Below are positions 1-44,860 of a stretch of DNA of 44,871 nt, piece after piece. Made by a program: the position numbers and the translations under genes. Positions within the stretch are counted from its first letter, which is position 1. Each line of letters begins with the position of its first letter. The stretch comes from a virus, in IMG/VR virus record IMGVR_UViG_3300050020_000405, positions 1-44,871 of that record. One strand, given 5' to 3'. The notes beneath the pieces are model-generated. The model saw only the letters and a program-made list of their open reading frames with translations, was not told the DNA's origin and ran no database searches.

Positions 1-116
1 CGGATTTCCGCCTTGCGCCGGCGCCAGTTGGCCATTTTGCGCAACATTCGTTCTCGCTTGTCCTGTCGGCGGTTATACCGTCTTAAGAACGGCACTCTCT
101 GCACGCACTGCGTCAT
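1..116 (-). CDS. N-terminal part of a 94-residue basic protein (duplicated by the terminal overlap)
   Basis: This is the first part of the gene given in full at 44576-44860; it runs off the left edge because of the circle overlap. The start codon at 116 overlaps the stop of the upstream small membrane gene as ATGA, which supports this start by translational coupling. The visible part is rich in Arg and Lys. Confidence 0.6.
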   Translation of the reverse strand, partial: MTQCVQRVPFLRRYNRRQDKRERMLRKMANWRRRKAEI

Positions 117-127
117 ATTCTATTGTT
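1..127. repeat. Terminal direct repeat, left copy (circle closure)
   Basis: Bases 1-127 are identical to 44745-44871. A 127-base exact overlap is what an assembler using a 127-mer leaves at the ends of a circular contig, so the molecule is probably a closed circle of about 44,744 bp. A true short terminal repeat of a linear virion genome is the alternative. A single reading frame runs through the joint in the right copy, which agrees with either. Confidence 0.9.
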
Positions 128-265
128 AGACCGCTTTTTCTTTTCTTGGCGGTCATACATTTCTTTTTCTTGCGCGGCGCACTCCATAAACCACAAACCG
201 ATTCCTGCCAGCACCACAAGGCATGGGATAACGATGCAGATTATCGTGATCATTTTGTCGCTCAT
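113..265 (-). CDS. Small single-pass membrane protein, 50 residues
   Basis: The protein starts MSDKMI, has one hydrophobic helix at about residues 5-27 and a charged Glu/Lys/Arg-rich tail, so it is probably an inner-membrane protein with a cytoplasmic tail. The ATG at 265 is chosen over an upstream start because an AAGGA ribosome site lies just before it and because the attC-like site 1 ends 20 bp upstream (GTTAGAC at 286-292). Its stop overlaps the next gene as ATGA. The function is not recognised. It is the last gene of the cassette-like block. Confidence 0.6.
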   Translation of the reverse strand: MSDKMITIICIVIPCLVVLAGIGLWFMECAAQEKEMYDRQEKKKRSNNRI

Positions 266-285
266 ATTTTTCCTTTTTTGTCGCG

Positions 286-390
286 GTCTAACCACGCGCT
301 GCTGCCAACGCGGGCTACGGCTTCAGATTCGTTTTGGACTCCGGCGGTTGTTTTCATAAATTCGGCGTGGCAGAGCTTGATTCGTTGTGC
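286..390 (+). repeat. attC-like site 1
   Basis: An imperfect palindrome with ends GTCTAAC (perfect RYYYAAC) and GTTGTGC. The arms are GCTGCTGCCAACGC on the left and the complement of GCTCTGCCACGC on the right; the left arm carries one extra G and one extra A six bases apart, the geometry of the extrahelical bases of integron attC sites. The right part reads GAGCTTGATTCGTT, typical of the attC 3' half. Site polarity is +, while the flanking ORFs read on -. Confidence 0.65.
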
Positions 391-632
391 CGCCTCCATT
401 CCTCGATTTTCTTGAAGACGTTTTCGTTTCGTTCCCAATCATCTTCGACATGATCTTTTTGGAAAAGTGAGGTATAGGCCATCGTTCCGTTTATTCCCCG
501 CAGTGCGATCAGGATGGCATAGAGTGCTTCGAGCAGGGCGGCGTCGGCACAATAAGTCCTTGGAGCGCAATTCTGCGCTGCCTTTTGGTTGGCGGACGTC
601 GCGGGCTTCGATTTTGGATTTTTGGTTTTCAT
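354..632 (-). CDS. Hypothetical cassette protein, 92 residues
   Basis: No family is recognised. The first ~29 residues are encoded by attC-like site 2 and the last ~12 by attC-like site 1. The body (about residues 30-80) has a hydrophobic helix rich in Ala and Leu, then an acidic and charged segment with several Trp and Glu residues. The ATG at 632 is the first in frame, but it lies inside the loop of the recombination-like site, so the natural start may differ. Confidence 0.45.
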   Translation of the reverse strand: MKTKNPKSKPATSANQKAAQNCAPRTYCADAALLEALYAILIALRGINGTMAYTSLFQKDHVEDDWERNENVFKKIEEWRRHNESSSATPNL

Positions 633-680
633 AGATTGGTTTCGTTTTGACGCGCAGAATGGCTCAAGTCCACGTTAGCT
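546..680 (+). repeat. attC-like site 2
   Basis: The left arm GAGCGCAATTCTGCGC (563-578) pairs with GCGCAGAATGGCTC (652-665), leaving one G and one A unpaired in the left arm. The right end is GGCTCAAGTCCACGTTAGC, close to the classical attC right half. The left RYYYAAC box is degenerate (GGCACAAT). The stop codon TAA of the gene at 675-884 lies in the CTAAC of the complementary strand, a typical position for a cassette gene. Confidence 0.6.
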
Positions 681-884
681 GATATAGCGTATGAGGTCAT
701 TGATGCTTCTCACTTTTACCCTGTCGCCATCGTGATACGCCCAGCATGTTCCGTCTCCTTTTACAAGCGTGATGCCGACGCATTTAAGTTGGTGTTTTAT
801 TTGCTCGTGATCCACGCACGCCTCGACAGTCTTTTGAGCGAGGATGAACTCGCGGGCGAAATCTATTCTTTGTTGTGGTGTCAT
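675..884 (-). CDS. Hypothetical cassette protein, 69 residues
   Basis: A small soluble protein beginning MTPQQRIDF. The N-terminal half is helical and charged; the C-terminal half has alternating hydrophobic residues with a WAYHDGDRVKV segment that looks like a small beta structure. No family is recognised. The ATG at 884 follows the GTTAGC end of attC-like site 3 by a few bases and the stop lies in site 2, so this is the cleanest single-gene cassette of the block. An in-frame TTG lies 12 bp upstream. Confidence 0.6.
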   Translation of the reverse strand: MTPQQRIDFAREFILAQKTVEACVDHEQIKHQLKCVGITLVKGDGTCWAYHDGDRVKVRSINDLIRYIS

Positions 885-888
885 ATCA

Positions 889-977
889 GCTAACAAATCG
901 TCGCAGCCAATGCCGGTTGGCGCTCTCAGCCAAGTCCGGGCGTCACTGGCCCGGCATGGCTGGACTCTGCGTTAGCC
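889..977 (+). repeat. attC-like site 3
   Basis: An 89-bp imperfect palindrome. The left end is GCTAACAAATCG and the right end TGCGTTAGCC. The inner arm GCAGCCAATGCCGG pairs with CCGGCATGGCTG with one unpaired A on the left. The right half GGCTGGACTCTGCGTTAG closely resembles the right half of the classical aadA attC site. Together with site 4 this is the best conserved member of the array. Confidence 0.7.
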
Positions 978-1354
978 ATCCTTGCCGTGGCGTGTATGTG
1001 CTTCACGAGTTGGCCGAAGATCACGGTTTCGGTTTCTTCGTCCACCGCTATCAAGTGGCGCACCGAATAGAACAGGTGGTAGGCTTCGTGAGCGATTACT
1101 TCGGCGAGTTCATCGTCTCGCAGGTTGGCATTGATGATGATTTTGTGGATTGCGTCCGGCGTCACACACCCCTCTTGCTCGTAGGTTTTGTGCTGTCCGC
1201 GTCCGTCCATGTCCTCGACGGTGATTGAGAGTTCCAGCCGGAAGCCGAGCGAGTCAGTTACGAGCTTCGACGGATGGCTAACAAATCGCTGCACCCGCAA
1301 TGACTGCTGCGCGGGCGGTTCAGCAAGTTCGTGAGATTTCAGAGCAGCAGTCAT
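926..1354 (-). CDS. HExxH zinc metallopeptidase-like protein, 142 residues
   Basis: The motif HEAYH at residues 89-93 (two His and the catalytic Glu) is followed by DEETET at about 105-110, which could supply a third zinc ligand. This resembles the short ImmA/IrrE-type phage and mobile-element metallopeptidases, but no partner repressor is next to it. Residues ~40-70 form beta-strand-like sequence. The ATG at 1354 overlaps the stop of the preceding gene as ATGA and lies in attC-like site 4, so about 26 N-terminal residues are encoded by that site; the C-terminus runs into site 3. There is no good start just after site 4, so the long form is probably used. Confidence 0.65.
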   Translation of the reverse strand: MTAALKSHELAEPPAQQSLRVQRFVSHPSKLVTDSLGFRLELSITVEDMDGRGQHKTYEQEGCVTPDAIHKIIINANLRDDELAEVIAHEAYHLFYSVRHLIAVDEETETVIFGQLVKHIHATARMANAESSHAGPVTPGLG

Positions 1355-1375
1355 GGGGTGAGCTTAGCGTTCGGC
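1276..1375 (+). repeat. attC-like site 4
   Basis: A 100-bp imperfect palindrome with ends GGCTAACAAATCG and AGCTTAGCGTTCGGC. The left arm GCTGCACCCGCAATGACT pairs with AGTCATGGGGTGAGC; the left arm has an extra G (GCTG against GCT) and an extra base before ATG. The stop of the 109-residue gene and the start of the metallopeptidase gene both lie in it (ATGA at 1351-1354). Confidence 0.7.
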
Positions 1376-1680
1376 GGCACTAGTCCGCGCTCAATTAAAG
1401 AGTCCATGATTTCTTTTGACGCAATCTTCCAGCCGTGGCGCATTAGCACTCCGGCAGCCGCCGTCGTATTCTGGTCGCCTATTTTCTTACGAAGCATTTT
1501 CCCAATTTCATCCACGTCATTTATCCACACGGCTTCCGGCCACGGACATTGTGGCCACCAGTCCAGTGCCGCCGAACCAGCCGGTGCAGCGAGTGAGCTT
1601 TGTCCCGACCACCGAGGAATGGTTGACATTTGCGTGAGCGCAAACGGCGCATCGTGCGTATTTTCTCGTTCATCGCTCAT
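1351..1680 (-). CDS. Hypothetical cassette protein, 109 residues
   Basis: Starts MSDERE at the ATG at 1680, just after an AGAAAGG segment. Residues 1-36 are encoded by attC-like site 5 and residues ~102-109 by site 4. The body between them has several Trp residues followed by a helical charged segment (DVDEIGKMLRKKIGD). No family is recognised. It overlaps the upstream gene by 11 bp. The N-terminal 36 residues parallel those of the next gene upstream (MSD..., then a GQS-x-L-x-A-x-AGSA segment) because both are translations of related sites. Confidence 0.5.
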   Translation of the reverse strand: MSDERENTHDAPFALTQMSTIPRWSGQSSLAAPAGSAALDWWPQCPWPEAVWINDVDEIGKMLRKKIGDQNTTAAAGVLMRHGWKIASKEIMDSLIERGLVPPNAKLTP

Positions 1681-1700
1681 CGCTGACCTTTCTCTTCGGC
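1571..1700 (+). repeat. attC-like site 5 (diverged)
   Basis: The left end is GCCGAAC with arm GGTGCAGCGAGTGAGC; the right end, read on the other strand, is GCCGAAGAGAAAGG with arm GGTCAGCGATGAGC. The left arm has two extra G residues at the usual spacing. The RYYYAAC and GTTRRRY boxes are degenerate (GCCGAAC and CTTCGGC). It is recognised mainly by comparison with site 6, whose left end is almost the same. Confidence 0.5.
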
Positions 1701-1954
1701 GCTTGGCATTGTGCCGTCCACGCTGGCAGTGACCATGACAGCACGGCGTCCACTGCATTGCGGTATTCGTGGTCGGCAGAATATCGCTCTGATTGTAGGG
1801 CGAGCATCGCCAGCCAGTGCGCCGATTCCACGCTCTTTTCCAGCGCCGAACCCGCCGTTGCAGATAATTCGCTCTGCCCCTTCACTTTTGGATGGACTGG
1901 GGTATCAGCGTTCATCCCGCCAAATCCGTGCGCGTATGTCGTTTTGTCGCTCAT
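1670..1954 (-). CDS. Hypothetical cassette protein, 94 residues
   Basis: Starts MSDKTT at an ATG that overlaps the upstream stop as ATGA. Residues 1-36 come from attC-like site 6 and the last ~10 from site 5. The central part (about 37-85) is a predicted helix pair with SAHWLAMLALQSERYSAD and a following AVDAVLSW segment. No known family is recognised. The modular build (site-encoded N-terminus, unique core, site-encoded tail) matches its neighbour. Confidence 0.5.
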   Translation of the reverse strand: MSDKTTYAHGFGGMNADTPVHPKVKGQSELSATAGSALEKSVESAHWLAMLALQSERYSADHEYRNAVDAVLSWSLPAWTAQCQAPKRKVSDER

Positions 1955-1975
1955 ATCTGAACTTTCTCGTTAGCC
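1845..1975 (+). repeat. attC-like site 6
   Basis: Left end GCCGAAC with arm GTTGCAGATAATTCGC; right end ATCTGAACTTTCTCGTTAGCC. Compared with the complement of the right arm (GTTCAGATAT), the left arm has one extra G and one extra A. CTGAACTT before CGTTAG is the usual form of an attC right half. Confidence 0.6.
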
Positions 1976-2253
1976 GTCTTACACATCCGGGCGCGAAGGG
2001 CGTTAAACAACCTTTCAATGTCGGCGCAAGTGAACATGTTTTTGCGATGGTCAATGACAGCCTTGCTTCCGGTGAGCAGCGGATCGAGCCAGTTAGTCGG
2101 CACGTCGTCAATCAGACGGCTAACCAATCGCTGATCCGCGACTCCGGGAGTCCCTACAGGTTTGCCGGTGCGAGGCTGGCAGCGCGCCAGATGCCTTGCG
2201 TCGGTGCTTGACCGTTTTATTTTCTTCGGATTGGTTGTAGATTTTTTCCGCAT
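1951..2253 (-). CDS. Hypothetical cassette protein, up to 100 residues
   Basis: The conserved-looking core is the C-terminal half, TNWLDPLLTG ... DIERLFNALRARM, a short helical domain that I associate with small hypothetical proteins of environmental bacteria. The basic N-terminal ~45 residues are encoded by or next to attC-like site 7, so the true start may be a GTG shortly after the GTTAGCC of that site (near 2100) and not the ATG at 2253. The stop overlaps the next start as ATGA. Confidence 0.5.
   Translation of the reverse strand: MRKKSTTNPKKIKRSSTDARHLARCQPRTGKPVGTPGVADQRLVSRLIDDVPTNWLDPLLTGSKAVIDHRKNMFTCADIERLFNALRARMCKTANEKVQI
2118..2220 (+). repeat. attC-like site 7 (weak)
   Basis: The left end GGCTAACCAATCGCTGATCC is clear. 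The right end GTCGGTGCTTGACCGTT has the expected order of elements, but pairing with the left arm is poor and the last box (GTTTTAT) is off consensus. Local hairpins are inside. Position between two ORFs supports it more than the sequence does. Confidence 0.35.
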
Positions 2254-2254
2254 A

Positions 2255-2833
2255 TTATCGTTTTGGGTTGTCGCCGGCGCGGGATAGTTCCCCGTTCTGC
2301 AATGCTATGATTGGACGAGTTTCGCATTGCGGGCTGTTGAGCCCATGCTCCTCGATGATTTTGGCTCGGGCAAGCGTTATGGTTGATCCCAGGTATCTCT
2401 CCATCGGAGCCATCCAATCGCAGGCAGGACACCACGCACACGTTGCAGAACCAGGAGCTGCACACAATGAGGGCCGCGCTTGGCTTGTGAGTAATTCGGA
2501 TGTCATTTGGGCGGCCCTCATGTGTGAGCTTGATTCGTTAGCCTGCTTGCGCTGTTGTTCTTTTATGGCTTCCTTCATCCATTCCCATCCCGGCCATTCA
2601 CCGTCCAGCTTTGCGGTGGCTGCTCCAAGTTCGTCGCTGTCATTCCAGACCATCATCAGATATTCCTCGAATAGCTTCCGGTCTTTCCCGCGCAGTTTCG
2701 CCATGATGCGCCGATGGAGTGGCGACCATTTCGTGCAGAGGTCACACTTGCATTTCCGACGCAGGCTAACAACGCGCTTCACCGCAACGCCCGTTGGACG
2801 CTGCTGGTTATCCGATAAGGTTTCAGGTTTCAT
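2255..2833 (-). CDS. Composite cassette protein with two Cys clusters, 192 residues
   Basis: The frame seems to be two cassette genes joined through attC-like site 8. Part one (residues ~20-96) has CKCDLC, a short basic segment and helices ending near a Trp-rich EWPGWEW. Residues ~97-129 are the translation of site 8. Part two (~130-192) begins with a second Cys cluster, CAWCPAC, followed by a helix. The Cys clusters suggest small zinc-binding domains, but no family is recognised. Part two could be made separately from the ATG near residue 141. The ATG at 2833 lies in the loop of site 9. Confidence 0.5.
   Translation of the reverse strand: MKPETLSDNQQRPTGVAVKRVVSLRRKCKCDLCTKWSPLHRRIMAKLRGKDRKLFEEYLMMVWNDSDELGAATAKLDGEWPGWEWMKEAIKEQQRKQANESSSHMRAAQMTSELLTSQARPSLCAAPGSATCAWCPACDWMAPMERYLGSTITLARAKIIEEHGLNSPQCETRPIIALQNGELSRAGDNPKR
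2445..2543 (+). repeat. attC-like site 8
   Basis: Arms GCTGCACACAATGAGGGC (left) and the complement of GCTCACACATGAGGGC (right) pair almost perfectly, leaving one G and one A unpaired on the left, six bases apart. The right end GTGAGCTTGATTCGTTAGCC is typical; the left box GCAGAAC is degenerate. The whole site is translated in frame on the minus strand inside the 192-residue ORF. Confidence 0.65.
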
Positions 2834-2874
2834 AAAGTCATTAGTCGGGCGTGGGTGAGCTTGTGCCGTTCGGC
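2764..2874 (+). repeat. attC-like site 9
   Basis: Left end GGCTAACAACGCG, right end GGTGAGCTTGTGCCGTTCGGC, nearly the same right end as site 4. The arm GCTTCACCGCAACGCCCG pairs with CGGGCGTGGGTGAGC. It is the last recognisable site before the terminase side of the block. Confidence 0.6.
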
Positions 2875-3122
2875 GTCACTTCGATCATTTGGCCGTGGTC
2901 ATTTACGGTCATCCTCCCACGCTCGGCGAGGATGCTGTATATCCGAGCCTTCCGGTGGCTTGTATCGCACCAGAAGTCTCCCACGAGCAGGGTCATACAG
3001 GCTCTTTCGAGTTCGCACGGTGACGCCGAAGCTGACGGCGAGTGCGCGTTGATATTCCGTTGTGTTCTTTTGAAAATCGCAGCACTTTCCAATGCAGGCA
3101 TGTGAGGCAAGACGCCATTCAT
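2841..3122 (-). CDS. Hypothetical protein, 93 residues
   Basis: The ATG at 3122 overlaps the stop of the upstream 81-residue gene as ATGA; a second ATG follows at 3101. The core (about residues 40-80) reads as a compact domain with FWCDTSHRKARIYSILAE. The last ~11 residues come from attC-like site 9. The N-terminal 40 residues are Ser/Ala-rich and of low complexity. No family is recognised. Confidence 0.45.
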   Translation of the reverse strand: MNGVLPHMPALESAAIFKRTQRNINAHSPSASASPCELERACMTLLVGDFWCDTSHRKARIYSILAERGRMTVNDHGQMIEVTPNGTSSPTPD

Positions 3123-3364
3123 ACGTTAAATCCCACTACCCGCGCCACGCTGTTCTTAAGATATTTCCGGTAACGCCGCTTGTAGCCTTTGCGCGGCTTG
3201 CACGGCTTATAGGTCTTGATCGTGCCGGCTTTCACCGCCGCGGCCAGATCGGAATCGTTCCAGGCCGTTATCAGTTTGACTTGGTAGGCCCCCAGCAACG
3301 CTGGCAGATGGTCAAACATCTCCTGGGTCACCGGCTCATTCTGCAATTTCAATTGGTCGGGCAT
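3119..3364 (-). CDS. Hypothetical protein downstream of terminase, 81 residues
   Basis: A small protein with a helical N-terminal half (QEMFDHLPALLGAYQVKL) and a very basic C-terminal half (KPRKGYKRRYRKYLK), so it could bind nucleic acid. It begins 14 bp after the terminase stop and is coupled to the following gene by ATGA. The stop region contains ATTTAAC, a perfect RYYYAAC box, but I found no matching partner to call another attC-like site. Confidence 0.5.
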   Translation of the reverse strand: MPDQLKLQNEPVTQEMFDHLPALLGAYQVKLITAWNDSDLAAAVKAGTIKTYKPCKPRKGYKRRYRKYLKNSVARVVGFNV

Positions 3365-3378
3365 TGGTTTGATGTTTC

Positions 3379-5409
3379 TTAGTAGCTGCCGCCGCCGCTC
3401 GTCTTCACTTTGCCACCCGCCTCCACGTAGCGCAGGCCGCGCGTGATGGCATATCTTAGGTCGTCAATCCAATCCTCGCAGGCGTCGTCGCTCGTGGTCG
3501 TGTCCGTGGGCAGGCAGTAATTGTTAGCCGCCCAGATGAAATTCCGGCATTCCCGGTTCGCAAAGAAACGCGGGCTGTTCGTCACCGGTGCCAGCGTCTT
3601 TTCCGCGTCAAAATAAAGCATGCCGTTGATGGCCGAGAGACCGTCCCTTATGTCCAGGCCTGGCGCCGGCACAAACGGCCGCAACACGCCCGGCCGGTCC
3701 CCGCGCATCGCCCGCTGGTTTTGCGCCGCCCACAATTTCGTGATCAAATCCATCCCCTTGCCGTCCGCCGCCGTCTGGTTGCGCGCCGCGCGCGGGTCAA
3801 TCAGGTTTTCAAACACGTCCTCGTAAATCCGGTCCAAGGCGTTCCCGTTCCGGATCGCTTCCCGGATGAGCAGCCGGTGATAATTGTCGCGCGCCTGATT
3901 TTGTAAAATCGCTTCAACCTCGCCATCCAAATCCGGCGGCAAATCTCCGCCGGTAAACAGCGCCAGTTTGTCCACAATTTCTGCCGGCACGCGCACCTTT
4001 TCCAGGTCGTCAAACAGCTTCACGTATTCCTCCGGCCCGTAGCCAATCGTGGGCTGTGCCGGGCCAACCTTGCCGTTCAGCAGTTTCGGGTTGGGACTCG
4101 TCACCGCCCATTCGCCATACGTCGCCCAGTCCGGCCATTCGCGCACCAGATACACGTTGGGCCGCTCCGCGCTCTCGCCCCGGCACACCCGCAGCCAGAT
4201 CGTTGCCCATTTCTTCGCCCCGCCCGGGTCCGTGATCTTATACATCGTGCCCTCCGCCGGGATTTGCTCCAAATCCACCAGGTTCCACTCCCCGAACTTC
4301 GGCAGCGCCCGCCCGCGCACGGATTCACAATATCCGTAGGCGCGCGCCATGGTGTATTCCGCGTTGCCCTTGCCAAGGCACAGTTCCTTGATGCCGCCCG
4401 GCAGCGCGTAGCCGCTGAAGGGGTTGTGCTCCGTGAACCGGTAGAAAATCGCGAGCCGCTTTTTATCGTCCACCTGCACTACCGGCATGTGGCCCGATGG
4501 CAGGCCCGGCACGTTCACCCGGCCGGCTAGGAGTTCCGCCGGCGCGTTCCGCACGGTCCGCACGTTCGCCTTCAGTTCCTTGATGGTCGGCGTGATGCCG
4601 TCTAATGGGCTATACATCCAGTGGATCTTCGCCCCGCGCGTGGCGCACACAATTTGAATATTTTCAAACCAGGGCAGCGTGCAATTTTCGTCCAAGAGCG
4701 CCCCGACGTCCGGAATTTTTGGATTCAGCGGCACGGTCGTTGCCTTGCCCAGTTCCCAGCCAAGAAAATCGCTTACGTCTTGCGTAAAATTCAAGAAATA
4801 GATCTCACACCCGCTTTTTCTGGGGTCCTTCGGGTCCGGCAAAATAAGCAGGCCGTCAAAGCCGTTTTGCGGAGTGTAATGCACCCGGAACTTAGTGCTG
4901 CGCACGTTGTTCAGCGCCTTGATCCAGTCCGGCAGATAATGCCAGAACGTCTGCTGCAAATTCGCCACGCTGGAGAGGGCGTTATCCTGCATGGCCCACC
5001 GCTTGGCCTTGCCGTATTCCAGGCAGCACTCCAGAAAACGCGGCACGCCGTCCTCCGTCTTGCCCGCCCGCCGGCCGCCGCTCTCATAGACAACTTGAAA
5101 TTTAGCCAGCAATTCATCCACCGTGCGGCTCTCCGGCAGGCGCAGCCGATGATACAGCGGGTCCGTCTCCGCCGCGCGCAACAGCGCCGCCCGGCCGTTC
5201 AGAAACTGATTCAGCTCCTGCGCCGTTTTCTGGTCCGCCATGTCCCGCGCCATCTGTTCGTCGCTCGGCAGCGGCAGCAGCGGGTGCGGTTTGAACGCAT
5301 AAAGCTCGTCCACCCGTTCTTCACGCTCTCCGCGTTCCGGCTTTTGCGGAATGGGGAGAGGGCCGGGGAGGGGTGTCCCTGCTTCAGGCGTCTGGACTGT
5401 CTCGCTCAT
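3379..5409 (-). CDS. terL: Terminase large subunit, 676 residues
   Basis: The DNA-packaging motor that drives the genome into the prohead and cuts it. A Walker A-like GGRRAGKT lies at about residues 111-118, after an adenine-motif-like KFQVVYESG, followed by a typical ATPase core; the C-terminal half holds the nuclease-like region (ITDPGGAKKWA and the final DDACEDWIDDLRYA segment). The ATG at 5409 is chosen over an upstream TTG because an AGGA site lies 10 bases before it. Residues ~12-22 (PLPGPLPIP) are the translation of a short dispersed repeat, an unusual N-terminal extension. No small terminase is recognised immediately upstream. Confidence 0.85.
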   Translation of the reverse strand: MSETVQTPEAGTPLPGPLPIPQKPERGEREERVDELYAFKPHPLLPLPSDEQMARDMADQKTAQELNQFLNGRAALLRAAETDPLYHRLRLPESRTVDELLAKFQVVYESGGRRAGKTEDGVPRFLECCLEYGKAKRWAMQDNALSSVANLQQTFWHYLPDWIKALNNVRSTKFRVHYTPQNGFDGLLILPDPKDPRKSGCEIYFLNFTQDVSDFLGWELGKATTVPLNPKIPDVGALLDENCTLPWFENIQIVCATRGAKIHWMYSPLDGITPTIKELKANVRTVRNAPAELLAGRVNVPGLPSGHMPVVQVDDKKRLAIFYRFTEHNPFSGYALPGGIKELCLGKGNAEYTMARAYGYCESVRGRALPKFGEWNLVDLEQIPAEGTMYKITDPGGAKKWATIWLRVCRGESAERPNVYLVREWPDWATYGEWAVTSPNPKLLNGKVGPAQPTIGYGPEEYVKLFDDLEKVRVPAEIVDKLALFTGGDLPPDLDGEVEAILQNQARDNYHRLLIREAIRNGNALDRIYEDVFENLIDPRAARNQTAADGKGMDLITKLWAAQNQRAMRGDRPGVLRPFVPAPGLDIRDGLSAINGMLYFDAEKTLAPVTNSPRFFANRECRNFIWAANNYCLPTDTTTSDDACEDWIDDLRYAITRGLRYVEAGGKVKTSGGGSY
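5351..5375. repeat. Dispersed GGGGAGAGGG repeat inside terL
   Basis: ATGGGGAGAGGGCCGGGGAG belongs to the same family as the copies at 18866-18907, 39460-39507 and 41910-41963. Here it is translated in frame near the N-terminus of the terminase. The family resembles the short palindromic repeats dispersed in many bacterial chromosomes. Confidence 0.6.
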
Positions 5410-5430
5410 GTTAATCAATTCCTGCTGTTA

Positions 5431-5460
5431 TGCCGCTTCGCGCACCCGCGCGAAGCGGCA
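5431..5460. other. Perfect 13-bp hairpin upstream of terL
   Basis: TGCCGCTTCGCGC, loop ACCC, then the exact complement. It sits 22 bp before the terminase start and after the small collagen-like ORF. No T-run follows on either strand, so it is more likely an RNA structure, attenuator or protein site than a simple terminator. Confidence 0.6.
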
Positions 5461-5485
5461 ATGTTGTTCAGAACCTCACGCAGTG

Positions 5486-5599
5486 TTACTCCTGTTCTTG
5501 ATGTCCACCTTGCTTGGCTGGCTCGCCTTGCTTGCCGGGGTTGCCTTGCTTGCCGGGGTTGCCTTGTTCGTGACCTTCGTGTTTTGTTTCATTACTCAT
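5486..5599 (-). CDS. Tiny collagen-like peptide, 37 residues
   Basis: An ORF from ATG at 5599 to TAA, made almost only of Gly, Asn, Gln, Lys, Glu, Pro and His, with two exact copies of GNPGKQG and a third related GEPAKQG. Gly-X-Y spacing is collagen-like. There is no strong ribosome site. The repeats in the DNA make both coding and chance possible. It lies between terminase and the structured spacer upstream. Confidence 0.35.
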   Translation of the reverse strand: MSNETKHEGHEQGNPGKQGNPGKQGEPAKQGGHQEQE

Positions 5600-5609
5600 T
5601 TTTGTTTGT

Positions 5610-5701
5610 GCGACACAACGTCGCGTTTCTGTGAACGGTTATAGACGTTCACATTGTTTTTGTTTATCGCAGTTCGACGACGGCTATAAACGCCGTCGAA
5701 C
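5610..5701. other. Cluster of three hairpins in the spacer upstream of terL
   Basis: Three short perfect stems follow each other: GCGAC/GTCGC at 5610-5624, GTGAACG/CGTTCAC at 5631-5652, and CGACGGC/GCCGTCG at 5678-5698 with extra outer pairing. With the 13-bp hairpin at 5431 they fill most of the 300-bp gap between the 57-residue gene and terminase. The gap could hold an end of the replication-gene transcript, a packaging (pac) recognition region or a structured RNA. Confidence 0.45.
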
Positions 5702-5716
5702 TTGATTCTTAAAATG

Positions 5717-5890
5717 TTATTCCAGTTCCAAATCCCAGCGCCGCCGCGCCACCAGTCCCGTCCCCGTCCGGCGCGTCACAAACACCGTCCCCCGCGGGCT
5801 GATGACGCACGCCCGGCCCTGTTGCCAGCCCCGCAGCAGCATCCGCAAAGGATGCCGCACCGGGCGCCACGTTGGCCCGGTCAATCGCAT
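5717..5890 (-). CDS. Hypothetical basic protein, 57 residues
   Basis: The ATG at 5890 is preceded by a strong GGGGAGGAAC ribosome site and overlaps the end of the upstream gene by 10 bp. The protein is rich in Arg and Thr with a beta-strand-like ACVISPRGTVFVTRRTG segment. No family is recognised. An upstream in-frame start exists but would overlap the neighbour fully. Confidence 0.55.
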   Translation of the reverse strand: MRLTGPTWRPVRHPLRMLLRGWQQGRACVISPRGTVFVTRRTGTGLVARRRWDLELE

Positions 5891-6102
5891 TTTGGCGGTT
5901 CCTCCCCGCGCGCCCGGCGCAGCAGCACCTGGGCGGCCTGCGACGCCGTGTTCAATTTTTGGGCCGTCTTTTCCAGCCACGGCACCGCCTCCGGCTTCAA
6001 CACACAACCCTTCGCCGTCACCTGCTGCAACAGCTCCTCCGCCAGCCGGCAGCCCATGGCCGAGTCATCCACCATGGCCACCAACAATTGTTCATTGCTC
6101 AT
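5881..6102 (-). CDS. Hypothetical helical protein, 73 residues
   Basis: Starts MSNEQL after an AAAGGA ribosome site. It is mostly helical (EELLQQV, EKTAQKLNTASQAAQVLLRRA). It follows the Pol X-like gene by about 20 bp in the replication-side operon. Size and position would allow a small terminase subunit or an accessory replication protein, but no motif proves either. Confidence 0.6.
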   Translation of the reverse strand: MSNEQLLVAMVDDSAMGCRLAEELLQQVTAKGCVLKPEAVPWLEKTAQKLNTASQAAQVLLRRARGEEPPKCD

Positions 6103-6125
6103 TTCTTGTGTCCTTTCTTTGGTTG

Positions 6126-6707
6126 TTATCGTTTATCCGGAGTTAAATAGTTCAGCCCCACGGTCTCAAACACGCCGGCCTCCCCGTTTATAAAAATGCA
6201 AATCGTCTCATCCGGATCGTCCGCCCCGCAAAAGCCGGCGCTGTAAGGTTTCCACTTCAAACCGCGCGCCTGCGCCGCCTTCGCAATGGCCATGTTGCTC
6301 TCGGCTGGTCCCGTCCGGCACACCAGGTAATTCCACCAGTTCTCCATCGTGGCCGTGAAAAAATCCACTGGCACACCGCTGGCCGTGTGCCGAGCGAGCT
6401 TGATGAGTTCGCCCCAGGTCCGTTGGTTCCGCTTGTTTTCTCGCGGCGCAATCGCCTTTAGGATAATCATATCCTCGATGGCCTTGGCCGCCTGGTTTAC
6501 GGGGCCGGCAAACATAAGGCCGGGAATCGGCTCGTTGCGCACCAGCGGCACAAATAAAATTTCAATGTCGCCCACTTCGTCTTTCTTCCGGCGCATGGAT
6601 CCCGCAACCATGCAGCGGCCAGGTTCGCAAAACGGGGCCAGTGCGCTTTGGATTTCGTTGGCCACGCCCGCCGCCAGCGCGTATGGATATTTTTGCTTGG
6701 CGCTCAT
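6126..6707 (-). CDS. Pol X-like nucleotidyltransferase, 193 residues
   Basis: It has the nucleotidyltransferase pattern of DNA polymerase family X: GSMRRKKDEVGDIEI at residues 36-50, with acidic metal ligands in the GDIE element, and a third Asp in GVPVDFF at about 115, followed by the NYLVCRTGPAESNMAIAKAA segment typical of the Pol X palm/thumb end. Length fits a minimal palm-thumb form without the 8-kDa lyase or HhH domains. It probably adds or fills nucleotides in DNA repair or end processing. The ATG at 6707 overlaps the helicase stop as ATGA, which fixes the start. Confidence 0.75.
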   Translation of the reverse strand: MSAKQKYPYALAAGVANEIQSALAPFCEPGRCMVAGSMRRKKDEVGDIEILFVPLVRNEPIPGLMFAGPVNQAAKAIEDMIILKAIAPRENKRNQRTWGELIKLARHTASGVPVDFFTATMENWWNYLVCRTGPAESNMAIAKAAQARGLKWKPYSAGFCGADDPDETICIFINGEAGVFETVGLNYLTPDKR

Positions 6708-8335
6708 GGTTCCCTTCCGGTTTCCACGTCCAGTTCTTCGCCCTTGTATTGCCCCTCGCCGGACGCCGCCGCCTTTAATTTGTTTTCCTTCAGCCAGCCG
6801 TTCCAATCGTGGAACTTGGTCGAGCTGCGTAAAAAGAGCAGTTCAGCCTTGCCCGTGGGGCCTTCCCGGTTCTTGGCCACCAGCCCGTTCACCCGGTGCG
6901 GGTGACCGTCCCACTTCCGCCAGTTCGGCCCGAACTTTTGCTCCATGCACGACTCGTAAAAATCCTTGGCCGTGTCCCCCAGCTTCGGTCGGTAAAGGAA
7001 CATCACCACGTGCGCGTCCTGTTCCACGGCGCCGCAACCCTTCAGGTCGCTCAACTGCGGCGTGCGCGTCGGGTCCCGCTCCCAGTCCCGGTTCATCTGG
7101 CACAGCACCAGAATTGGGCAATCCAGTTCCTTCCCCAGCGTCAGCAGTTCGTGCGAGATGTCCTCCAGCTCCTCCACCTGGCTCTGCTGCCGCCGGCGCG
7201 GTTCCCCGCGCAGCAGTTGAAAATAATCCACCACAAAGAACCGCACCCCGTGCTGCCGGTGCCAGCGCCGCGCACGGGCCTTCAACTGCCCCACTGTGAT
7301 GCCGGGGCTTTCATCAATGTAAATTCCAGCCTTCGCCAGCGTCTCCGCCGCCTTCACCAGAGGGACAAGGTCCGCGTTCGTGGCAAAGCCCGTCCGCCAC
7401 CGTTGCAAATCCGCGTTCGCCTGCTGAAAGAGCATCCGGCGGCCCAGACTCTTCCGGCTCATTTCCAGGCTGAAAATGCCCACCGGCTTGCCTTGGTGCC
7501 GGTCCATCAACGCGCGCGGTTCCCCGGTTTTTTCGTCCGGCTTCGTCAGCACGTTGCCCGCCGCGTCCTTTTTTTCCGTCCACCATACCGCCTCCAGCGC
7601 CACGTGCTGCGCAATCTGGATGGCCAGCGCCGTCTTGCCCGTGCCCGGCCGCCCGGCGCACACCAGGTAATTGCCGTTGTCGCCGCCCATGCCTGATAGC
7701 ATCTTGTCCAGATACGCCAGCCCCGTCGTCAACCCCTCGATCTGCGCCGCGCCCCGGTGGTAATTCTTTTCAATGCCCGGAATGACTTCCTCCAGAATCA
7801 CCGTCGCCAATTCCCGTTCCGTCGCCGTGCGCCCCTGCGCCAGCTCCTCGATGAGCCGGAAATCCGTCATCACCTCGTCCACCAGCGCGTCCACTTCACC
7901 CTCGTAATCGAACACGCGCCCGACGGTGTTCGTCCCGGTCTGGACCATTTTGCGCAGCAGCCATTTGTCCCGCACCTTGTCGAGGTAATAGAAAATATTC
8001 GCGGCGCTGGGCACGGCATCCTGGAGTTGCGCGAGGTAGGCGATGCCGCCGACTTCATCCAGCATGTTCATGTCCTTCAAGCGGCCCTGCAGCGTGATCA
8101 CGTCAATGACCGGCTGGCCGTGTTCGCGCAGCCAGGTGATGGCGTGCCACACCGTCTGGTGCCGCAAATCGTAAAACCAGTCCGCCGTCAGCCCCTTCTC
8201 GTCCGCTTCGTCCATGCATGTGGTGGGAGCCAGCAACACGCAGCCCAGCACCCCCTGCTCCGCCGCCCCGTCATTCGGCGGCAGCCGGTCCAACTTGATG
8301 GACTGTGGACTTTGGACTGTGGACTTTTTATTCAT
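6704..8335 (-). CDS. dnaB: Replicative DNA helicase, DnaB type, 543 residues
   Basis: A hexameric helicase for phage replication. The N-terminal domain occupies residues ~20-165, a linker follows, then the RecA-like core with Walker A GRPGTGKT at 228-235, a conserved IFSLEMSRKSLGRRM segment, Walker B-like VVDYFQLL at about 368-375 and a QMNRDWERDPTRTPQLSDLKG segment. An insertion of about 25 residues after the Walker A helix carries a charged KTGEPRALMDRHQG loop. Its first 16 residues are partly the translation of a TGGACTGTGGACT-type repeat. It overlaps the upstream initiator gene by 8 bp. Confidence 0.88.
   Translation of the reverse strand: MNKKSTVQSPQSIKLDRLPPNDGAAEQGVLGCVLLAPTTCMDEADEKGLTADWFYDLRHQTVWHAITWLREHGQPVIDVITLQGRLKDMNMLDEVGGIAYLAQLQDAVPSAANIFYYLDKVRDKWLLRKMVQTGTNTVGRVFDYEGEVDALVDEVMTDFRLIEELAQGRTATERELATVILEEVIPGIEKNYHRGAAQIEGLTTGLAYLDKMLSGMGGDNGNYLVCAGRPGTGKTALAIQIAQHVALEAVWWTEKKDAAGNVLTKPDEKTGEPRALMDRHQGKPVGIFSLEMSRKSLGRRMLFQQANADLQRWRTGFATNADLVPLVKAAETLAKAGIYIDESPGITVGQLKARARRWHRQHGVRFFVVDYFQLLRGEPRRRQQSQVEELEDISHELLTLGKELDCPILVLCQMNRDWERDPTRTPQLSDLKGCGAVEQDAHVVMFLYRPKLGDTAKDFYESCMEQKFGPNWRKWDGHPHRVNGLVAKNREGPTGKAELLFLRSSTKFHDWNGWLKENKLKAAASGEGQYKGEELDVETGREP
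8299..8326. repeat. TGGACTGTGGACT-type short tandem repeat
   Basis: Tandem GGACTGT/GGACTTT units at the 5' end of the helicase gene, translated in frame as an N-terminal STVQSPQS segment. The same unit occurs at 22149-22183 and 23511-23542, each time at the 5' end of or just before a gene. Confidence 0.7.
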
Positions 8336-10391: not shown

Positions 10392-10700
10392 TCACGCGCG
10401 CTCCTTGGCCAGCTTCCGGCGCAATTCTCCGGTGTTGCGCGCTTTGATACCGACATCATAAAAAAAACGCCGCGCGCCTAGGAACGCGTTCACGGCACTG
10501 GCCGGGATGCGCAGCTCGCCCGCAATCTCCACCGGCTCGCTAACCACGCGGGCCGGTGCGCCCGTGCGCAAGGTCAGTTCGCCTGCTTTGCACTTGTCGC
10601 GCCAGAACTCCGGGGAAAAGCCAAGAAGGTAAAATAGCTCGCGCGGGCTGTAATACTTTTCCACCACGCGCTGGGCACCGTTATGTGTGGGCATCGTCAT
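10392..10700 (-). CDS. Excisionase-like small wHTH protein, 102 residues
   Basis: Residues ~14-75 carry a winged-helix pattern of the MerR/excisionase kind: KYYSPRELFYLLGFSPEFWR, a short turn and a basic strand, then RIPASAVNAFL. The C-terminus is basic. Size and early position fit an Xis/Cox-type directionality factor for the integrase or a small early regulator. The ATG at 10700 is used; a second ATG is 6 bp further on. There is no strong ribosome site. Confidence 0.55.
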   Translation of the reverse strand: MTMPTHNGAQRVVEKYYSPRELFYLLGFSPEFWRDKCKAGELTLRTGAPARVVSEPVEIAGELRIPASAVNAFLGARRFFYDVGIKARNTGELRRKLAKERA

Positions 10701-10822: not shown

Positions 10823-11122
10823 TTAACTTACGGAACCAGCGAACTCCACGGCGCTATAATCAGGAAAACATTCCGCGCGGCACGCCGGGCAGATCCCATG
10901 AGTCATCCAAAGGTGGCGGCCGCGGCAAAACATAGTCAGCGGCGCCACGTGCATGTAGCGCTGGCACCAGGCACACTGGCGATGGATTGCCAGCCAGGCC
11001 AGCGCGCGCGCCCAGAGCGTTGGGCGCTGGCAATGGCTGGTAGCGGGAGTTGGAATTGACCCAACGACCTCACGGTTATGAGCCGCGCGATCTGCCACTG
11101 ATCTATCCCGCAATGAATTCAC
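10823..11122 (-). CDS. Zinc-ribbon-like ORF overlapping the tRNA gene
   Basis: The C-terminal half has CAWC ... HGICPAC, a two-CxxC pattern like the short zinc ribbon at the end of some signalling proteins of Verrucomicrobiota and related bacteria. The frame starts with GTG overlapping the previous stop (GTGA), but its first ~28 codons run through the tRNA-Met on the same strand. The real protein may start later with a non-standard codon, or the tRNA-like part may be translated from unprocessed transcript. Confidence 0.35.
   Translation of the reverse strand: MNSLRDRSVADRAAHNREVVGSIPTPATSHCQRPTLWARALAWLAIHRQCAWCQRYMHVAPLTMFCRGRHLWMTHGICPACRAECFPDYSAVEFAGSVS
11038..11112 (-). tRNA. tRNA-Met (CAT)
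   Basis: A complete cloverleaf can be drawn: acceptor TGCGGGA/TCCCGCT (six pairs, the first a T-T mismatch), D-stem GATC/GATC, anticodon stem CGCGG/CCGTG with loop CTCATAA, variable AGGTC, T-stem GTTGG/CCAAC with loop GTCAATT, discriminator A and encoded CCA. The anticodon is CAT. The three G-C pairs of an initiator anticodon stem are not all present, so an elongator (or an Ile tRNA with modified C34) is likelier. The mismatch at 1-72 and G at position 54 are unusual. Confidence 0.75.
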
Positions 11123-11403: not shown

Positions 11404-11835
11404 ATGAGCAATTTTGGGGCAAAGCTGGCTGAAACTCTTGAGCAAAACAAGCTCTCACAGGCCGAATTGTCGCGTTTGACGGACATTAGCGAGGCGTTAA
11501 TTTCCAAATGGATGAATGGCCAGCAGACTTTTGTTAGCACTGAAGACTTGGGAAAACTTTGTGTGCATATCACCAGCAAGCCGAAAGAACGGGCGGAATT
11601 AGTGCGTGCTCATCTATACGACGAGATGCCAGACAAGGGGGCTGAATTACTCAACGTCAGCATCTCCGGCACCATAAGTTATCTTAAAGAAACTGCGCCC
11701 GCGAGAGCACCGCTTCCGTTGAATCTTCAAAGAGCATTCAAAATTCTACAACGCGAAGCTCTGCATGATGCCGACGTGCGTGCGGTCATCCTCGGTCTCA
11801 CAAAAATAGTTGCGCCCGAAACCCGCGAGGAGTAA
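11404..11835 (+). CDS. XRE-family repressor (CI-like), 143 residues
   Basis: The N-terminal ~65 residues form a classical XRE helix-turn-helix: LSQAELSRLTDISEALISKW, then a fourth helix. The C-terminal part is helical, without a LexA-type Ser/Lys protease domain, so inactivation would not follow the RecA-cleavage route. It is divergent from the early operon, which marks it as the lysogeny repressor. The ATG at 11404 is preferred over one at 11326 because the HTH begins right after it and the promoter ends just before it. Confidence 0.75.
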   Translation: MSNFGAKLAETLEQNKLSQAELSRLTDISEALISKWMNGQQTFVSTEDLGKLCVHITSKPKERAELVRAHLYDEMPDKGAELLNVSISGTISYLKETAPARAPLPLNLQRAFKILQREALHDADVRAVILGLTKIVAPETREE

Positions 11836-11844
11836 ACCGATGCC

Positions 11845-12003
11845 ATGTTTATCGTCCAACTTGTTTTATTCGTTGTCGGTCTCACCAGTCTGTGCCTGTT
11901 GGTTGAATGGCTCACAACCGCATCTCCTTGGGTGTTTGCCGGCGTCTGTGTTGTCGCGTGGCTTTCCTTTCAAGCTGGCAAATGTAATCACCCCAACCCA
12001 TGA
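11845..12003 (+). CDS. Small two-helix membrane protein, 52 residues
   Basis: ATG at 11845, preceded by GAGGAG; the product MFIVQLVLFVVGL... has two hydrophobic segments (about residues 1-20 and 27-43) around a polar TTASP turn, and a short polar tail. Its TGA overlaps the integrase ATG as ATGA. Position between repressor and integrase suggests a gene expressed in the lysogen, for example for superinfection exclusion, but no family is recognised. Confidence 0.6.
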   Translation: MFIVQLVLFVVGLTSLCLLVEWLTTASPWVFAGVCVVAWLSFQAGKCNHPNP

Positions 12004-13223
12004 ACCCTCCAAACGTCCAAACTAATTGTTCAGCCTTCAGCCTTCAGCCTTCAAACTTGAAAGCGCAGCGTCTGCACCGTCACGGCCTCACCATCGTCAA
12101 GCGTCCGGGGCCAAACGGCTTTGGCACCCGCAAATTCACCTGCACCGTCAAATTTCGGCGGCAAACCTATTACCTCACGCTCGCGGAGACCGCCGAGCCA
12201 TCGTTCAAAATGGCCGTCATTTTCCGTCGCGGCATTTGCGAAGGCCGTGTGAACGAAATCTTGGCACAAACCCACCTACGCAGTCCGCACCCGGCCGTGT
12301 CCTCCGTCACAGAAATCCTCGCGCGCTACACCGCGCGCGCGCGTGGCGTGACTGCCGTCAAGGAAACCACCGTGCGCGCCACGGCCAACGCCGTCCGCTA
12401 CATCATGGCCGCCGCCGGCAGCCAATGCTTCGATGCCGACGTGCTTGCCTGCTTCAAACAAACCAAGCTCGAGGCCGCTGGCGATGATCAACTCCTCCGG
12501 GCTCGGGCCGCCATCACCATCAACAGCTACATTCGCCAGGCCCGCAGCCTGTTTGCCGCGGATTACCTCGATGCCGACATTTACAAAGGCTTGACGCTTC
12601 CGGATCTCCCGGCGGTGTTCAAAGTCAAGCTCCTGCCCGAGCCACCCAAACGCTTCCAAATGCCCGCGCGCGAACTCATCCAGAAAATCCTCGCAGCCGC
12701 GCCCCTGCTCAAGCTGGCCGACACCAATGCCTACATCATTTTCCTGTTAAGCGTCGGCGGCGGGATGGACAAGCAGGAAATTGCCCATGCACGGCGCGTT
12801 TGGCTTACCAAGAGCGATGTCGGCGCGCAAGTCGAAGTCAAAACCGAGGCCGACTTCACCCCAAAGTATAATCGCTCCCGCAACATCGGCCTGGAGACGT
12901 GGGTTTATGACGAACTGCTCGCCGTCACCATGCCCCACGTCGGCGTCGGGCCGGACTATCTGCTCAACGGCAGCCCCAGCGAACGCACCGATCAAGCCTT
13001 TCGCCGTTTTGGCGCGTGGTTAAAACAGTTGGGTTGGATCCAGCACAAGAAAGCCCACGCCATGCGGAAAATCTGCGGCAGTGTCTTCGCGGAGACCGTC
13101 GGCCTGCGCGCTGCGCAACAAGCCCTCGGACATCGCAATCAAAAGACCACCGAGGCGCATTACGTCGGCAACTTGAACGTGCCGCGCGCCGACGTCTTCG
13201 GCACCCTGCAAAACTACCGGTAG
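12000..13223 (+). CDS. int: Tyrosine recombinase (phage integrase), 407 residues
   Basis: It integrates the phage at a tRNA-Lys gene and, with an excisionase, removes it. The C-terminal catalytic domain shows HAMR (His353, Arg356), GHRN (His378) and the nucleophile in HYVG (Tyr388). The box I position, where an Arg is expected after TG-Leu, reads GGGMDKQEI with Asp257 in place of Arg, an unusual active site. The N-terminal part has an arm-binding-like beta domain (30-65) and a core-binding helical domain (~100-200). Residues ~10-18 come from a short CAGCCTT tandem repeat. The start is coupled to the small membrane gene by ATGA. Confidence 0.85.
   Translation: MNPPNVQTNCSAFSLQPSNLKAQRLHRHGLTIVKRPGPNGFGTRKFTCTVKFRRQTYYLTLAETAEPSFKMAVIFRRGICEGRVNEILAQTHLRSPHPAVSSVTEILARYTARARGVTAVKETTVRATANAVRYIMAAAGSQCFDADVLACFKQTKLEAAGDDQLLRARAAITINSYIRQARSLFAADYLDADIYKGLTLPDLPAVFKVKLLPEPPKRFQMPARELIQKILAAAPLLKLADTNAYIIFLLSVGGGMDKQEIAHARRVWLTKSDVGAQVEVKTEADFTPKYNRSRNIGLETWVYDELLAVTMPHVGVGPDYLLNGSPSERTDQAFRRFGAWLKQLGWIQHKKAHAMRKICGSVFAETVGLRAAQQALGHRNQKTTEAHYVGNLNVPRADVFGTLQNYR
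12031..12053. repeat. CAGCCTT tandem repeat in the 5' end of int
   Basis: Three copies of CAGCCTT in a row, translated in frame as part of the integrase N-terminus. It is one of several short repeat types in this genome found near gene starts. Confidence 0.6.
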
Positions 13224-13322
13224 GCAGAGCGGGTAGCTCACGCATGAACACCGCGCCCAAAACACTCGCTTTAGCCCAAAACCGTGAACGCGGTGGGCAT
13301 TGCGTGCAGCGTTTTGTTAGCA
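13223..13322 (-). repeat. attC-like site 10 (solitary, after int)
   Basis: On the minus strand: GCTAACAAAACGCTGCACGC at one end and GCGTGAGCTACCCGCTCTGCC at the other. The arm GCTGCACGCAATG pairs with CATGCGTGAGC with one G and one A unpaired, as in the main array. The int stop codon touches its left edge. Its polarity is minus while the genes that follow read plus, so the rule seen in the main array (site opposite to ORF) is kept. A 43-codon frame from 13243 inside it is probably not a gene. Confidence 0.6.
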
Positions 13323-44575: not shown

Positions 44576-44860
44576 CTAAAAATATTTTAATATCAAACCC
44601 AGCGCCTTCGCCGCACGGCGGCCCGATTTCAGGTCCGTGAAATGCGTTTCCCCCGTGGCCTTGACGCGCACGCCAAATTCCAGCGGATAATACCGCTCCA
44701 TTTTCGGCTCGCGCTCCAGCAGACCGGCGGCGATGCGTTCCCGGCGGATTTCCGCCTTGCGCCGGCGCCAGTTGGCCATTTTGCGCAACATTCGTTCTCG
44801 CTTGTCCTGTCGGCGGTTATACCGTCTTAAGAACGGCACTCTCTGCACGCACTGCGTCAT
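44576..44860 (-). CDS. Basic protein upstream of portal, 94 residues
   Basis: The first ~65 residues are a very basic helix (RRYNRRQDKRERMLRKMANW), the rest is mixed with RVKATGETHFTDLKSGRRAA. It bridges the circle joint: its start codon lies in the terminal repeat (116 in the left copy) where it overlaps the stop of the small membrane gene as ATGA. Could bind DNA near the packaging machinery; no family is recognised. Confidence 0.6.
   Translation of the reverse strand: MTQCVQRVPFLRRYNRRQDKRERMLRKMANWRRRKAEIRRERIAAGLLEREPKMERYYPLEFGVRVKATGETHFTDLKSGRRAAKALGLILKYF

Follow-up and report, generated by a model that had tools for sequence, protein, structure and literature searches.

Integrons are gene-capture platforms of bacteria, and the phage examples reported to date have, to our knowledge, been interpreted as captured bacterial pieces. 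The present analysis concerns an array of small open reading frames (ORFs) separated by attC sites in the viral record IMGVR_UViG_3300050020_000405 of IMG/VR. The whole stretch of 44,871 nucleotides was analysed and is called the window below. It is important to compare this locus with the integron systems that have been described.

The closest known systems are the clusters of attC sites lacking integrases (CALINs) of phages, which are like the window in being integrase-less attC clusters in a phage (Qi et al. 2023, PMC9892861). The part of that paper available to us reports 17 phage CALINs with methyltransferases as common cargo, and attC sites of isolated phages that were recombined by IntI1. 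The cassettes of TJE1 and PH101 are described there as lying in the same direction with the typical bacterial structure, unlike those of the window; also unlike the window, the same part reports no attI-like edge and no start or stop codons in attC. The sedentary chromosomal integrons of Vibrio cholerae (PMC11023631) share with the window many similar attC sites, unrelated cores and an attI at the edge (a putative attI-like site in the window). However, they contain IntI and their cassettes are sense to attC and read from Pc, while those of the window are antisense and have no encoded IntI. The attC sites of class 1 mobile integrons (aadA, cmlA and others) have the same R''/R' boxes, L arms and two bulges, and site S4 of the window is similar to the cmlA attC (AAATCGCTGCA ... 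GAGCT). In contrast to these, the window has no resistance cargo and its attC sites hold start codons. Fused cassettes with common transcription (PMC4670013) are alike in that partial loss of attC joins neighbouring ORFs; in the available part of that source they are a rare accident in sense arrays, whereas here such joining is common in antisense arrays.

We propose, with a probability of roughly 0.6, that the block in the window is a phage-adapted integron array which is fed by an integrase in trans and consists of antisense, often translationally coupled cassettes; the action of IntI in trans, insertion at the edge, expression with the late genes and coupled translation are the parts that we infer. 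The proposal draws on the observed sites and their orientation, on the start and stop codons inside them, on a conserved edge after which the DNA of related records differs, and on cassette modules common to different arrays. The antisense orientation, the internal codons and the attI-like boundary at 105-131 go beyond an earlier note on this DNA, which had described about nine palindromes as an array of attC sites.

attC sites of the window

A covariance model, R1, was trained on 23 bacterial attC sites, of which 12 belong to resistance cassettes and 11 are chromosomal; the window contributed no site to it. With the filters off, it places nine attC sites within 286-2874, every one on the + strand, with scores from 49.3 to 14.2 bits (Table 1). 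These are nine of the ten top matches in the genome, the tenth being at 13224-13322 (-), and the best background score is 11.7 bits. The presence of 9/10 top matches inside about 2.6 of 44.7 kb corresponds to a binomial p of about 7e-11. The palindromes of the earlier note are therefore attC sites scoring above background, although only four of the nine are individually strong (E<1e-4) and the remaining five are degenerate, with damaged boxes.

The left end GCTAACAA(A)TCG, which the earlier note had taken as common to the sites, is preserved with little or no change in S1, S3, S4, S7 and S9. The box check found TAAC retained in the same five sites, but the R'' TAAC is lost in S2, S5, S6 and S8; GTT is retained in S2, S3, S4, S6, S8 and S9. 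The bottom-strand arms of S1, S3, S4, S8 and S9 fold with long pairing and two single-base bulges about six bases apart in the 3' arm. Such paired bulges in one arm are the extrahelical-base arrangement of attC. The folds of whole sites beat shuffles in S3, S4, S5 and S8 alone (z -3.7, -2.3, -3.1 and -3.4, respectively). The proposed likeness to the attC of mobile integrons holds for the boxes, arms and bulges, but the window sites are closer to other phage attC than to those of resistance integrons. In comparisons with attC of other records they gave 64 matches to virus attC and 1 to bacterial attC, the virus set having been picked by a window-derived pattern. Two simpler detectors, a home-made scan for stems and boxes and a hairpin scan of the whole genome, were dropped, since their matches occurred throughout it.

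The tests show the nine sites to form an attC cluster that lies between terminase and portal and lacks an integrase gene, that is, a CALIN. Two features of a complete integron, the intI gene and sense cassettes, are absent from the window.

Cassette orientation and codons inside attC

Every cassette ORF of the window is antisense to attC and lies on the same strand as the late phage genes. For comparison, virus records were selected by a left-end sequence pattern derived from the window, and several of them are fragments; the virus counts therefore apply to this selected set alone. The ORF and ATGA calls were mechanical. The longest ORF per interval between neighbouring attC is antisense to attC in 90/121 intervals of other virus arrays, 9/41 bacterial or plasmid and 4/26 Verrucomicrobiota intervals. 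In the family search, where one antisense and one sense ORF were entered per interval if length allowed, 107 antisense ORFs matched 54 PHROG and 17 Pfam families, while 78 sense ORFs matched none of either. The families of the antisense ORFs include Dam, N6_N4 and C5 DNA methylases, radical SAM, PAPS reductase and HTH (helix-turn-helix). The test of coding-strand codon usage was weak, with cassette ORFs near zero and phage genes at about 0.4, and the family searches decided instead. Phage status was established via terminase or portal for the window, G005, G433, G011, G031, G017 and L202, and via Mu-type genes for G013.

Exceptions with sense ORFs are the virus record G033 and the phage TJE1. 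When R1 was applied to the published phage CALINs, MW202573 (L150 2069-3738) was found antisense to attC and TJE1 sense; the available part of Qi et al. 2023 (PMC9892861) contains no remark on the orientation in MW202573. The attC strand tracks the local genes: the window array is + among - genes, the site near the + recombinase gene is -, and the same is seen in G005. In Vibrio cholerae the bottom strand of attC is more active on the lagging-strand template (PMC11023631). Because the orientation tracks local genes, the antisense rule is probably better explained by transcription or by simple selection for expression than by the genome-wide direction of the replication fork.

A bottom-strand ATG opening a frame of at least 40 codons out through R'' is present in 90/149 virus sites and in 9/69 bacterial sites (p 1.5e-11). 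The offset from the upstream stop to the ATG has a single sharp peak at the 4-base overlap ATGA (30/87). Coupled ATGA inside attC occurs in 40/154 virus sites in the antisense direction and 1/154 in the sense direction, in 1/71 bacterial sites and in 0/34 Verrucomicrobiota sites. Clear overlaps of this type are found in S4 and S6 of the window (Table 1). A coupled ATGA in S5 was discounted, as it is part of a frame of only 50 aa, while the true overlap at that site measures 11 nt; about 1/40 of the virus ATGA cases is thus unsound.

Some sites also encode the start of the protein. S9 and an attC of G037 are 88% identical and have the common leader MKPE..DN.QRPTGVAV.RVVS, followed by different proteins. 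G005 and G028 likewise share an attC and the leader MTELNLT.AKRNCDGQPSLAPAT, again with different proteins downstream. TAAC is lost in 20/22 leader frames that would otherwise meet the R'' TAG, compared with 12/70 in other frames; the figure of 20/22 tells how R'' was sacrificed and not how often, because an open frame defines the set.

Edge of the array, relatives and shared modules

The segment 105-131 resembles attI in its anatomy, with a constant left part that closes with G^TTRRRY and variable cassettes after it, and is a putative attI-like site. Its 25 bases GCACTGCGTCATATTCTATTGTTAG are exact in the window, G005 and G433, and there is zero similarity after them among these three. An IMG/VR scan for the inner 16-mer added four records with the same preceding context: L220, a 5.6-kb contig for which the identical 25 nt are the sole stretch in common with other records, L233 with a near-identical motif, and L223 and L228 with a variant. 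The motif is thus found in seven records altogether, including the window, while the remaining records with the inner 16-mer have different contexts and no attC match. Within the window this is the only copy when up to 3 mismatches are allowed. Pairwise homology ends +0 to +6 bases past the motif and the DNA beyond differs; L223 and L228, for example, are 94% identical over about 120 bp until 2 bases past the motif and then diverge. An attC lies directly beyond the motif in L223, L233 and L220, and the L228 stretch ends 109 bp past it, too soon for an array to be visible. Read in the direction of the genes, the motif is CTAACAATAGAATATGAC, and therefore an incoming ORF can end in ..NNRI and a TGA stop overlapping the ATG of the 94-aa ORF. 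This ending with the TGA/ATG overlap occurs in the window, G005, L223, L228 and G433.

In L004, the closest relative by portal (63% identical), the portal comes at most about 320 bp after the 81-aa gene and there is no array, and R1 has no matches in the related contigs L003 and L004. G005 is circular, with a 99-bp repeat, and has identities to the window of 30% for the terminase large subunit, 28% for portal and 42% for DnaB. More than 12 attC sites with unrelated cores separate its terminase from the 94-aa ORF, and they lie on the other strand than the genes. G433 is also circular (127-bp repeat), with its array between portal and the 94-aa ORF. The cassettes of both differ from those of the window, and the constant neighbour of the array is the 94-aa ORF. 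These relatives speak against the block being an old colinear operon, the outcome that the earlier note had set against its proposal.

Modules are shared between arrays. The window core 2525-2755, between S8 and S9, has 81.9% DNA and 69% amino acid identity to a G028 core that is likewise flanked by two attC, while the attC sites and flanks differ. A complete attC-core-attC block is 98% identical in G025 and G028 (L133 2082-2958, L135 8935-9813), with unrelated flanks. Similar attC pairs have a common core on the R'' side in 3/79 cases and on the R' side in 1/188. At L127 10598/12749 and L131 17999/18519 the same array holds a cassette twice, the attC copies agreeing over 99 bases, a sign of recent duplication. 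At L052 4082-6442 (record G038), close to attC sites, a DnaB homologue is in two parts separated by about 1 kb, perhaps by an intein, an intron or an inserted cassette. For the metalloprotease-like cassette of the window, no close relative was found in IMG/VR.

The record of 44,871 nt has a 127-bp direct terminal repeat and was therefore taken as a circular genome with a unique length of 44,744 bp. Its late genes on the - strand are the terminase, the 81-aa gene, about 3 kb of small ORFs and then, over the origin, the 94-aa ORF and the portal (Table 1). Homologues of the terminase and portal in L004, G005, L042 and L023 identify it as a phage genome, and the major capsid protein is of the SU10 type (Pfam). 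Window 1-8000, used as a nucleotide query against phage records, gave no match, and neither did an alignment of the terminase against genome contigs. A tRNA gene at 11041-11112 (-), between the replication genes and the recombinase, is a possible integration mark.

Table 1. Features of the array and its surroundings in the window
Feature	Position	Strand	Remarks
attI-like site (putative) GCACTGCGTCATATTCTATTG^TTAGAC	105-131	+	array edge; overlaps ATG (position 116) of 94-aa ORF
attC S1	286-390	+	28.8 bits, E 8.3e-5; R' box degenerate; two bulges in bottom-strand 3' arm
attC S2	547-679	+	14.2 bits; R'' degenerate, R' GTTAGCT intact; holds ATG of ORF 354-632
attC S3	888-977	+	49.3 bits, E 1.3e-9
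attC S4	1276-1375	+	43.2 bits, E 3.4e-8; holds ATGA stop/start overlap (1351-1354, -) of ORFs 1351-1758 and 926-1354
attC S5	1571-1700	+	21.2 bits; R'' GAAC; R' without its G
attC S6	1845-1975	+	14.9 bits; R'' GAAC; holds ATGA overlap 1951-1954
attC S7	2118-2300	+	17.4 bits; left end good, right end doubtful
attC S8	2448-2543	+	15.2 bits; R'' degenerate, R' GTTAGCC intact; strong hairpin
attC S9	2764-2874	+	33.3 bits, E 7.2e-6; encodes N-terminal leader MKPETLSDNQQRPTGVAVKRVVS of ORF 2255-2833
Cassette ORF 1, 50 aa, membrane-like	113-265	-	stop TGA overlaps ATG of ORF 44576-44860 in attI-like site
Cassette ORF 2, 92 aa	354-632	-	ORF call
Cassette ORF 3, 69 aa	675-884	-	stop TAA falls in S2 R' box
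Cassette ORF 4, HExxH metalloprotease-like, 142 aa	926-1354	-	phrog_87 metallo-protease, E 1.1e-5
Cassette ORF 5	1351-1758	-	in-frame ATG at 1680 within S5
Cassette ORF 6, 94 aa	1670-1954	-	ORF call
Cassette ORF 7, 100 aa	1951-2253	-	ORF call
Cassette ORF 8, 192 aa, Cys-rich N half	2255-2833	-	phrog_11280, E 3.1e-5; core 2525-2755 common to G028 array
ORF between array and 81-aa gene	2841-3122	-	ORF call; end within S9
Conserved 81-aa phage gene, far edge of array	3119-3364	-	55% identical homologue in L004
Terminase large subunit	3379-5418	-	homology and position
Solitary attC-like site	13224-13322	-	17.2 bits; abuts phage tyrosine recombinase gene (12000-13223 +)
Portal protein	42285-44504	-	homology and position
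94-aa ORF beside attI-like site	44576-44860	-	runs over origin (44860 = position 116); 60-77% identical ORFs at same motif in G005, G433, L228

Source of the integrase and rival explanations

In the proposed mechanism, the nine attC sites, four good and five decaying, all read away from the attI-like edge. Incoming cassettes would be inserted at the G^TTAG of this edge, and cassettes could be lost or reshuffled via attC x attC recombination. Since the phage encodes no integrase, IntI would be provided in trans, either from the host or from an element that infects the same cell. The late operon, in the order terminase, cassettes, 94-aa ORF and portal, would transcribe the cassettes without an integron promoter, because the ORFs are antisense to attC. 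The stop-start overlap and the N-terminal leader in several attC probably join ORFs to their neighbours by translational coupling, and R'' would have been mutated where the leader frame would reach the R'' TAG, which would fix those cassettes. The bottom strand is here the coding strand, and late transcription would expose it.

IntI above the curated cut-off is present beside antisense arrays in G024, G022, G037 and G008 (L261-L264), and as in integrons its gene diverges from attC. In each of these four records a box with ..T followed by GTTA lies in the stretch that separates intI from the nearest attC. The intI-side boxes, TAATCATT followed by GTTAG in G008 and TAATCACT followed by GTTAG in G037, are not unlike CATATTCTATT followed by GTTAG in the window. 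In the tree the IntI proteins of G008 and G037 pair, on long branches. Relatives of the window DnaB are encoded in G008, G022 and G037, which may be phages or phage-like plasmids, as no structural genes were found in the parts read. In G024, the last array ORF apparently overlaps the intI start as ATGA. The phage tyrosine recombinase of the window was rejected as an IntI, not being of that family. Near the recombinase of G005 there are two solitary attC-like sites, 10522-10625 and 11612-11701 (-), antisense to the local genes. Among the 388 Verrucomicrobiota genomes, 108 contain IntI above the cut-off and 12 contain portal relatives, and Verrucomicrobiota chromosomes carry attC of the window's class. 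The sampling covered this phylum alone, and as a host it is a lead only.

Several results weigh against a phage-adapted array fed in trans. No integron integrase gene (TIGR02249) was found in the circular window genome, G005 or G433. The edge motif overlaps a start codon, and its conservation could serve gene expression. It was not found in the 388 Verrucomicrobiota genomes at up to 1 mismatch, and the two-mismatch matches look like chance. There is no pair of near-identical phages with different full-length arrays, the common stretch of L223 and L228 being only about 120 bp. The 98% identical block of G025 and G028 ends at R'' on one side and at R' on the other, while canonical cleavage at R' predicts otherwise. 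In addition, no excess of third-position change was found in the leader codons, so the leader peptides seem unselected, with the frame kept and the sequence not.

That the block is an ordinary CALIN, in which the phage acquired bacterial gene cassettes and carries them passively, is unlikely. Phage CALINs are already known, and 5/6 tested phage attC recombine with attI1 according to the available part of PMC9892861; the attC of the same class in Verrucomicrobiota chromosomes also fit this explanation. However, bacterial ORFs are sense to attC, while the phage arrays are reversed and have coupled ATGA. One edge motif bounds the arrays of several phages, the antisense cargo matches phage families, and the window sites match almost exclusively virus attC, in a set biased by the window-derived pattern. 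The view that these are former attC, which have ceased to recombine and act within a fixed late operon as RNA hairpins or as joints between coding regions, appears improbable. It accounts for the degeneration of 5/9 sites, for the loss of R'' in S5, S6 and S8, which removes an in-frame TAG, and for the stop and start codons overlapping within sites, but S3, S4 and S9 have intact boxes, arms and bulges. Moreover, the cassettes that follow this edge differ among relatives, and cores are common to unrelated contexts.

There is also a slight chance that real modules are exchanged not by IntI but by the phage tyrosine recombinase, or that attC resembling one another undergo homologous recombination. 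The recombinase gene of the window abuts the solitary attC-like site, the two G005 sites lie near a recombinase as well, and the end of the 98% identical block at R'' would agree with such exchange. In contrast, the phage recombinase is not IntI-like, and the end of homology at most 6 bases from GTTAG in seven records is unexpected under homologous recombination. Beyond the phage-adapted array itself, a tentative extension, somewhat short of an even chance, is a separate phage integron class, with its own IntI or not. In this class the cassettes would run toward attI/intI antisense to attC, and attC would be both a single-stranded recombination hairpin and a joint for translational coupling. 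The cassettes would come from a pool maintained among phages and not from bacterial integrons, and the recombinogenic bottom strand would be the coding strand, exposed by late transcription.

If the proposal is true, phages use site-specific recombination to shuffle accessory genes, which in these arrays encode DNA methyltransferases and other small proteins. It would also provide a system in which the coding and recombination constraints on attC are separable. The reason why integron cassettes are mostly sense to attC becomes testable, as does the effect that orientation relative to transcription has on attC activity. With an attI-like acceptor, reversed cassettes and start and stop codons in attC, some phages may possess an integron type of their own.

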